Source of the DNA: Terriglobia bacterium
Lineage (GTDB): Bacteria > Acidobacteriota > Terriglobia > Terriglobales > Acidobacteriaceae
Length of the DNA: 64,000 nt
NCBI GenBank assembly: GCA_020073165.1
Contig: JAIQFP010000012.1
Coordinates: 1 to 64,000 of the forward strand
Direction of reading: 5' to 3'
This document shows, piece by piece, positions 55,717 through 58,077 of this stretch. Position 1 is the stretch's first letter, and each line of letters opens with the position of its first letter. The translations under genes and the position numbers were made by a program. Under the pieces are notes generated by a model, which was not told the origin of the DNA, ran no database searches, and was given only the letters and a program-made list of their open reading frames with translations.

Positions 55717-55974
55717 CACCCAGAGAATACTCAACTGCTCAAGCGGAATCCAGAAGAGTTGACGGTTTCTTGGCCCGTGGGTGTCTAATACCGATGGTGA
55801 CGTGTGGGCGATCCCCAGAGTCCCAAAACGGGCGGGCTTCCGGATGCGCGTTGACATTTGTGTGCCAGAAGGGCGAAACTACCGGATTCGCTAACCGGCC
55901 TGCTTTCCCCTAGCATCAAGGGCGACGGTTGGCGGAGGCTTCAGGCTGCACTTGCATTCGCCAAAATCTTTGCC

Positions 55975-56421
55975 ATGACCGATCACCGGGTCTCCTACAC
56001 TCTGGACTCGACGTTGGAGACCGTCGACAGTGCCGAGCAAACTGCCAGCCGGATCGCGGCCGAGACCGGCTTCGGCGAAGATGAGGTCATGCAGATTGCC
56101 ATGGCGGTGCGGGAAGCTGCGGTCAATGCCGTGCTCCATGGCAACGCCTATGATCCCGGCAAGAAAGTCAGCGTAGATTTTGAAAGGACCGGCCACGACC
56201 TGGTGATTACCATCCGCGACCAGGGCAGAGGTCTGGACTTGAGCAAGATTCCCGACCCCCTGGCGCCGGAGAACCTGCTGAAGACGTCGGGGCGGGGTAT
56301 TTTTCTTATCCGCTCGTTCATGGATGAGGTGCACATCCACCCTTCCCAAACGGGCACCGAAATCAAACTTATCAAGCACGTCCACGGCCAGACCGCGGGC
56401 GGCAAGGAGGCTTCCCAGTGA
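55975..56421 (+). CDS. Anti-sigma-type serine kinase (RsbW/SpoIIAB-like ATPase)
   Basis: A protein of 148 residues of the GHKL ATPase type. The N box is VREAAVNAVLHGNAYDPG, the G1 box is RDQGRGLDLSKIP and the G2 box TSGRGIFLIRSFMDEV. These kinases bind a sigma factor and phosphorylate the STAS partner. Its stop overlaps the GTG start of the STAS gene. This indicates a partner-switching unit; the target sigma factor is not in the window. Confidence 0.92.
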   Translation: MTDHRVSYTLDSTLETVDSAEQTASRIAAETGFGEDEVMQIAMAVREAAVNAVLHGNAYDPGKKVSVDFERTGHDLVITIRDQGRGLDLSKIPDPLAPENLLKTSGRGIFLIRSFMDEVHIHPSQTGTEIKLIKHVHGQTAGGKEASQ

Positions 56422-56762
56422 GCATGAAGTGCAGCAACCGTCAGGTCGATGGCATCACGATTGTGGACTGCAGCGGCCGTATCACGCTGGGTGAGGGCAG
56501 CGTCATCCTGCGCGATACCATACGCGAACTGCTTTCCAAGGGGCAGAAGAAGATCCTGCTCAACCTCGCCGATGTGAACTACATCGACAGCTCGGGCATT
56601 GGCGAGCTCGTCAGCGCCTTTACCACTGTGCGCAACCAGGGCGGCGAACTCAAGCTGCTCAACCTCACCAAGAAGGTGCACGACCTGCTGCAGATCACCA
56701 AGCTGTACACCGTCTTCGACGTGAAGGACGAGGAGGCGGCGGCGGTCAAGGCGTTCGGTTAG
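56418..56762 (+). CDS. STAS-domain anti-anti-sigma factor
   Basis: A protein of 114 residues starting at GTG 56418, with GGAGG seven bases upstream and overlapping the preceding TGA by four bases. The STAS pattern is clear (ITIVDCSGRITLGEGSVILR, NLADVNYIDSSGIGELVSAF), with the conserved phosphorylatable Ser58 in DSSGIG. In its unphosphorylated form it should bind and inactivate the RsbW-like kinase. Confidence 0.93.
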   Translation: MSMKCSNRQVDGITIVDCSGRITLGEGSVILRDTIRELLSKGQKKILLNLADVNYIDSSGIGELVSAFTTVRNQGGELKLLNLTKKVHDLLQITKLYTVFDVKDEEAAAVKAFG

Positions 56763-56940: not shown

Positions 56941-57465
56941 ATGCGCATTTCTCGTCTCGAAAGCTCGCAGGTAGACTCCGCGACGGCAGAAATTTTCGAC
57001 AAGTTCCAGAAAGAGCGCGGCAATGTGCCCAACATGTTCCGCACTGTGGCGCATCGCCCGGAATACTTGCGGACCATGATTGCCCACTTTCGTACCGTGA
57101 TGAATACCGGCACCATCTCCACCAAGCTCAAAGAACTGTTGGTGGTACGGGTGTCGCAGATCAACCGCTGCCAGTATTGACTGGCCTCGCATACCGTCTT
57201 GGCAAGACGGCAAGGCTGGAGCGAGGAGCAGATCAGGGATCTGGAGAACTACGAGAAGCGCGCTGACTTCAGCGCAGCGGAAAGAGCGGCGTTGCGCCTG
57301 ACTGAGCGCATGACCTGGGATGCCCACACCGTGGATGATGAACTGTGGGCAGAATTGCGCCAATACTACGACGAAGGCCAGATCGTGGAACTGGCGTCGG
57401 CGATCGGTTTGTTCAACTACTTCAACCGCTTCAACGACGCGCTGAGAATGGAGCCGGCGAAGTAA
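56941..57465 (+). CDS. AhpD-like protein with in-frame UGA, predicted selenoprotein (CxxU)
   Basis: Read through its TGA at 57178-57180, the gene encodes 174 residues starting at ATG 56941 (MRISRLESSQVDSATAEIFD). The TGA is codon 80 and lies in Cys77-Gln-Tyr-TGA-Leu-Ala-Ser-His84 (INRCQY, then LASHTV). AhpD and peroxidase-related proteins have C-x2-C-x3-H here, so the TGA takes the place of the second redox cysteine. Protein similarity continues on both sides in the same frame (LARRQGWSEEQI, FSAAERAALRLTERM, LASAIGLFNYFNRFNDALRM), and a SECIS-like stem-loop starts at once after the TGA. Selenocysteine is therefore more likely than a nonsense mutation. Such proteins reduce peroxides or act as thiol oxidoreductases. 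It follows the STAS gene by 178 bases. Confidence 0.8.
57178..57219 (+). promoter_or_regulatory. Bacterial-type SECIS element with its UGA
   Basis: After UGA (57178-57180) the lower stem CUGGCCU (57181-57187) pairs with AGGCUGG (57213-57219), including two G-U pairs. Internal loops are CGCAUA and CA. The upper stem CCGUCUU (57194-57200) pairs perfectly with AAGACGG (57204-57210). The apical loop is GGC. The distance from UGA to the apical loop is 20 bases. A G at the start of a small apical loop and a spacing of roughly 16-37 bases are the features I recall for bacterial SECIS elements, which recruit SelB. Confidence 0.75.
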
Positions 57466-57561
57466 GTCGTCTGGTGTGCGCTGAACTGGTGTGGGGACGA
57501 GTCCACGACCCGTCCGGGCCGAGCGCAGCCTGGCGAGGTTTTGTCCGTAGGAGACCGTGCA

Positions 57562-58077
57562 GTGGCGTTCGTAAAGACTCTTCTGCTGATCGTGCCAGTA
57601 CTGCTGATATCCTCGCTCAGCGCCGCCGACTGCATTCCCTTTGCCGAAGCCGCCAAGCATGTCGGCGCAACTCGGTGCGTCAGTGGCAAGGTTCTCCACG
57701 TCAAACAAGGCAACCGCGGTGTGACTTTCCTGAACTTCTGCGAAGACTATCGCCTCTGCACCTTTAGCGTCGTCGTCTTCCCCAGCGACCTGAAAAGTGT
57801 GGGTGACGTGCGCCAACTGCAAGGCAAGGACATCGAAATTCACGGTCCCATCAGGCTCTACGACGGCCGCGCTGAGATCATCCTGCGTGACTACAAACAA
57901 CTGAGCGGCGAGGCCGCGCGGATTCCACCCTTACCGAAGGGTTACGACGTGGAGAAAAAAGGGCGCTACAGCGCCGGCAAGTTCAGCTATCCGAACAAGC
58001 GCAAAACCGCCAAGCAACGGCAGACTGCGCCGGTGCAGACCGAAGAGCAGGAGGATGCGTCGGTCTTGCCGGAGTAG
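57562..58077 (+). CDS. Secreted OB-fold protein of unknown function
   Basis: A protein of 171 residues starting at GTG 57562, with TAGGAG about eight bases upstream. It has a signal peptide (VAFVKTLLLIVPVLLISSLS, cleavage near SAA-D). The next 100 residues (AKHVGATRCVSGKVLHVKQG, VTFLNFCEDYRLCTFSVVVF, LQGKDIEIHGPIRLYDGRAEI) have the five-strand order of an OB fold. Cysteines at CEDYRLC could pair. The basic, Gln-rich C-terminus (KRKTAKQRQTAPVQ) suggests nucleic-acid or anionic-polymer contact. It follows the AhpD-like gene by 96 bases. Confidence 0.75.
   Translation: MAFVKTLLLIVPVLLISSLSAADCIPFAEAAKHVGATRCVSGKVLHVKQGNRGVTFLNFCEDYRLCTFSVVVFPSDLKSVGDVRQLQGKDIEIHGPIRLYDGRAEIILRDYKQLSGEAARIPPLPKGYDVEKKGRYSAGKFSYPNKRKTAKQRQTAPVQTEEQEDASVLPE

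Follow-up and report, generated by a model that had tools for sequence, protein, structure and literature searches.

A predicted AhpD-like selenoprotein of Acidobacteriota and the hairpin downstream of its in-frame TGA

Genes for AhpD-like selenoproteins may be mistaken for truncated genes or pseudogenes in annotation. A locus in the soil-type genome of a Terriglobia bacterium raises the corresponding question: is the TGA in its reading frame a stop, an error, or a codon for selenocysteine (Sec)? We analysed the 64,000-nucleotide stretch that carries it (the window), together with the rest of the host genome and homologous loci from other genomes.

The frame at 56941..57465 (+ strand) consists of 174 codons followed by a TAA stop, and encodes an AhpD-like protein (CMD domain, TIGR01926-type) with a TGA as codon 80 (57178..57180, + strand). 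This codon occupies the position of the second Cys in the CxxCxxxH motif, in the active-site context NRCQY-U-LASHT. The partner cysteine of C-x2-U, Cys77, is encoded by TGC at 57169..57171 and His84 by CAT at 57190..57192, both on the same strand, giving C77-x2-U80-x3-H84. Translation of 56941-57465 reproduced the frame, the coordinates, the TGA and the three residues as the initial annotation had listed them. Its proposal that the gene encodes an AhpD-like selenoprotein is supported by the Sec machinery of the host, by a covarying hairpin kept only in Sec forms, and by the same TGA in relatives. We consider this finding well supported: with a probability of about 0.96, the gene encodes a Sec-containing AhpD-like thiol/selenol oxidoreductase whose UGA would be decoded via SelB and Sec-tRNA(Sec) at the hairpin.

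Conservation of the TGA in homologous loci

We compared codon 80 across 111 fetched homologous loci (the window was set aside, and some records stand under two locus identifiers). The codon was TGA in 39 loci, TGC or TGT in 70 and Ala in 2. The nearest genome, from the same genus and 95% identical, has TGA as well; orthologues are 50-95% identical over the whole length, and the TGA is still seen in homologues whose protein identity is as low as about 34-50%. A sample taken across the phylum contained 22 genomes with a close match (E <= 1e-40), of which 18 carried the TGA form and the other four an open frame. Plasmid records yielded no relatives other than distant ones (best rows 33%).

Taken by itself, one TGA in a draft genome might be a true stop that arose by nonsense mutation and left a pseudogene, or a TGC or TGT miscalled in the assembly. 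The recurrence of TGA in the 95%-identical congeneric genome and in more than 20 other genomes, however, shows that it is not a sequencing error, which disposes of the misread cysteine codon that the initial annotation had named as a way to be wrong. A pseudogene is likewise refuted by this recurrence and by the conservation of the protein on both sides of the TGA, active-site residues included, as far as the C terminus; conservation beyond the TGA is what translation of that part would predict. Covariation of the hairpin, described below, also speaks against these explanations, to which we attach next to no probability.

The residues around codon 80 differ between the two forms. Position 77 was Cys in 39/39 Sec forms, and Thr in 51 of the 70 Cys forms (xTPYC), while His84 was invariant in the homologue alignment. 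In two homologues of about 35% identity (L051 and L052), the redox positions are taken by Ser and Ala; the redox site thus appears to have been lost in that branch.

The hairpin and the machinery for Sec insertion

Just 3′ of the TGA lies a SECIS-type hairpin (57194..57210, + strand) with a 7-bp stem, CCGUCUU/AAGACGG, and the triloop GGC (57201-57203), which is separated from the UGA by 20 intervening nucleotides; stem-loop sequences and spacing were as initially annotated. The window has 1713 TGA triplets (+ strand, 818; − strand, 895), and in a scan of all of them a 7-bp stem of Watson-Crick pairs closing a G-initial triloop was present 15-25 nt after the TGA at codon 80 only. An Rfam search with the hairpin gave no match, and the hairpin was therefore assessed through comparative counts. 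Folding of the single sequence was not significant (z −1.5), and its MFE structure differs from the hairpin; the case for a functional element is carried by comparative evidence, not by folding of one sequence.

The comparison of Sec and Cys homologues that the initial annotation had recommended separated the two forms sharply. The stem was complete in 32/34 distinct Sec forms and in 0/68 distinct Cys forms, the latter keeping a mean of 2.0 of 7 pairs. In an alignment of 33 Sec forms, from which the divergent L053 was omitted, 97.8% of stem cells were paired, and 26 double changes (C-G to U-A is one example) were distributed over six of the seven pairs. None of 500 shuffles reached this level, and slid registers were far lower too. 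The triloop was GGC in 33/34 distinct Sec forms. Two TGA forms (L030 and L053) lack the exact hairpin, and each can form another small hairpin nearby.

The initial annotation had described a two-part stem-loop, of which the upper stem was borne out as covarying and specific to Sec forms, and the lower was not. The proposed lower stem, CUGGCCU (57181-57187) with AGGCUGG (57213-57219), spans 57181..57219 (+ strand); its letters are present, but it is not conserved as a structure. Were SECIS function to depend on it as well as on the apical hairpin, one would expect it to weaken in Cys forms, where no SECIS is required, yet it pairs about as well in them (5.2 of 7) as in Sec forms (5.4 of 7). All seven pairs can form in the window sequence and the true register pairs better than slid ones, but covariation among Sec forms hardly exceeds that of shuffles. 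The arms encode the conserved residues Leu-Ala/Ser and Gly-Trp, so that the pairing is accounted for by conservation of the coding sequence. We therefore rejected the lower stem as part of the SECIS; that both parts are required together is unlikely.

The host genome (4.6 Mb in 35 contigs, 100% complete) has the whole set of Sec genes for which the initial annotation had advised a search: tRNA-Sec with anticodon TCA (70.3 bits, over cut-off), selB (370.7 bits), selA, and a selD with an in-frame TGA of its own at AAG-U-ASK. tRNA-Sec scored over cut-off in 20/23 related TGA-form genomes. It was not found in three incomplete assemblies with the TGA form (G002, G044 and G048), the first two of which have selB. 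Altogether, five TGA-form genomes were without a tRNA-Sec match, all of them drafts (completeness, where given, 90, 89 and 73%); selB was over cut-off in three of these five, matched partially in one and gave no clear match in one.

Low-level UGA readthrough occurs in some bacteria, and the codon might thus be read as an ordinary amino acid by near-cognate suppression, giving a regulated extension without selenium. The UGA, however, sits exactly at the redox Cys position of the homologues, the SECIS-type hairpin is kept only together with UGA, and the host genome contains Sec genes. We rejected this explanation as highly improbable. The TGA of codon 80 is almost certainly decoded as Sec, judging from these comparisons: SelB, carrying Sec-tRNA(Sec)(UCA), would bind the hairpin at 57194-57210 just 3′ of the UGA.

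At least four selenoprotein genes are predicted in the host genome. Its selD (L019, contig C2, about 127.6-128.7 kb) is predicted to encode a Sec-containing SelD; its in-frame TGA (AAG-U-ASKL) is followed by the hairpin GTCCGGC-GGC-GCTGGAC, whose 7-bp stem carries its GGC loop 20 nt beyond the UGA, the same geometry as in the AhpD-like gene. A second AhpD-like TIGR01926 candidate (L138, C22:57086-57421; CVY-U-IESH) scored 107.2 bits against a cut-off of 81.8 and has a 7-bp hairpin whose GTT loop lies 17 nt beyond the UGA. A third AhpD-like candidate (L136, C16:6865-7266; CPF-U-MDIG) has a 7-bp hairpin with the loop GTT 18 nt after the UGA, and its nearest family is the YciW-related NF053654 (128.8 bits, below cut-off). 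The host genome also contains a Cys-type AhpD-like paralogue (L009/L134, C11:75042-75536; GCRYCLQHH) less than 1 kb from selB.

Exchange of Sec and Cys in Acidobacteriota

In most syntenic loci, the Sec form is immediately preceded by two ORFs (55858-56762 in the window), one with an RsbW-like ATPase domain and one with a STAS domain. In the window, the former is of the anti-sigma kinase type (HATPase_c_2, PF13581; 55858..56421, + strand) and the latter of the anti-sigma-factor-antagonist type (PF01740; 56418..56762, + strand). Downstream of the selenoprotein gene, a small ORF (57541-58077) without a Pfam match is kept in about half of the syntenic loci.

In a midpoint-rooted tree of 105 rows, the Cys forms made up one clade of 65 members, another of three, and a single distant paralogue beside selB. 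On at least two occasions Cys forms appear nested among Sec forms, and one of these cases concerns the locus syntenic with the Sec gene. That case is the clade of three (L065, L066 and L070), which is still accompanied by the RsbW-like and STAS genes known from the Sec locus and whose genomes still have tRNA-Sec and selB. The retained neighbours and machinery indicate that in these three Cys most likely took over from Sec within the existing gene and the hairpin was lost. As for the large Cys clade, RsbW-like and STAS neighbours were found at none of its loci checked for synteny, and tRNA-Sec was present in 2 of the 17 genomes sampled from it. One Cys-form genome assembled as a single contig (G018) yielded neither tRNA-Sec nor selB over cut-off; another (G020) has both.

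Sec is likely ancestral in this family in Acidobacteriota, although its direction of change is not firmly rooted, because the tree is midpoint-rooted and has long branches and unsettled bootstrap values. A fuller scenario, which we advance tentatively and at somewhat less than even odds, is that ancestral Sec was replaced at least twice by Cys and that one of the replacements then lost the partner Cys as well (CxxU to CxxC to TPYC), so that those Cys enzymes may use a different, one-cysteine mechanism. If so, Sec/Cys orthologue pairs would allow the contribution of selenium to be tested apart from that of the resolving cysteine. The Sec and Cys orthologues form a natural series, in which one Cys replacement sits at the Sec locus itself, and lend themselves to tests of the reasons for keeping or losing Sec.

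Putative function and comparison with known families

With the TGA read as Cys, the protein matched the CMD family (PF02627, 7e-18) and, among NCBIfam models, passed the cut-off of TIGR01926 'peroxidase-related enzyme' (95.8 versus 81.8 bits). An AlphaFold model (pLDDT 95) is all-helical, and in it residue 80 lies close to where helix 78-90 begins; the protein has the AhpD core motif, CxxC/U-x3-H, within an all-helical CMD fold. Membership of AhpD proper (TIGR00777) was rejected, at 21.3 bits against a cut-off of 191.95.

The chemistry of AhpD-type CxxC proteins provides a basis for assigning roles to the two redox residues, and by this analogy Sec80 is likely the attacking residue and Cys77 the resolving one. 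Sec80, at the helix start near His84, would probably attack and reduce a peroxide or similar electrophile; Cys77 would resolve it as a selenenylsulfide, which a cellular thiol system would then reduce. A peroxidase role, as predicted from family and fold, is probable only, since the debrominase Bmp8 shares the fold. Indeed, Bmp8 (6ohi/6ohj) is among both the sequence and the fold matches, and the family's substrates are mostly untested, which would leave room for an AhpD-fold thiol enzyme of another kind, for example a Bmp8-like reductive dehalogenase or a reductant of protein disulfides. Fold scores are, however, slightly nearer to 'peroxidase-related' AhpD-core proteins (TM about 0.9 for 2prr, 3c1l, 6k40 and 2oyo), and the neighbouring genes examined included none that we recognised as halogenation-type. 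We regard a role other than peroxidase as doubtful, and the peroxidase as the better prediction.

Solved 'peroxidase-related' AhpD-core proteins (2prr, 3c1l, 2oyo, 2pfx and 6k40) superimpose on the model with TM-scores of 0.87-0.91 and an rmsd of about 2-3 Å at 26-29% identity to the window protein; their annotations are those of uncharacterised proteins, antioxidant proteins or alkyl hydroperoxide reductases, and not of selenoproteins. Bmp8 (6ohi) has the fold in common with the model at TM 0.86 and 22-24% identity. The best NCBIfam match by E-value (1.7e-28) was NF053654 (GroundWater_YciW, YciW-related (seleno)protein), but membership was rejected at 99.6 bits against a cut-off of 310; the paralogue L136 is nearer to it, although also below the cut-off.

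Acidobacteriota are known Sec users, as exemplified by the three known selenoprotein genes of Occallatibacter riparius (PMC12013277), and the locus adds an example from a phylum rarely discussed for selenium use. AhpD-like CxxU selenoproteins were first reported from the Sargasso Sea (PMC1088965) and also from GOS data (PMC2398784), and 'AhpD-like protein, TIGR01926, CxxU' is a known prokaryotic selenoprotein family in a 2026 review of the prokaryotic selenoproteome (PMC13188914). The initial annotation had likewise counted AhpD-like proteins with CxxU among described bacterial selenoproteins. Since that family is already listed, the type of selenoprotein is known and the window gene is a lineage-wide addition to it. 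What is new is the Acidobacteriota lineage, its synteny and its Sec/Cys history; we found no published description of this AhpD-like lineage in the literature searched. The window gene resembles the TIGR01926 CxxU family in having Sec at the second position of CxxC and a bacterial SECIS-type hairpin, and differs from it in forming a separate Acidobacteriota lineage that adjoins RsbW- and STAS-type genes.
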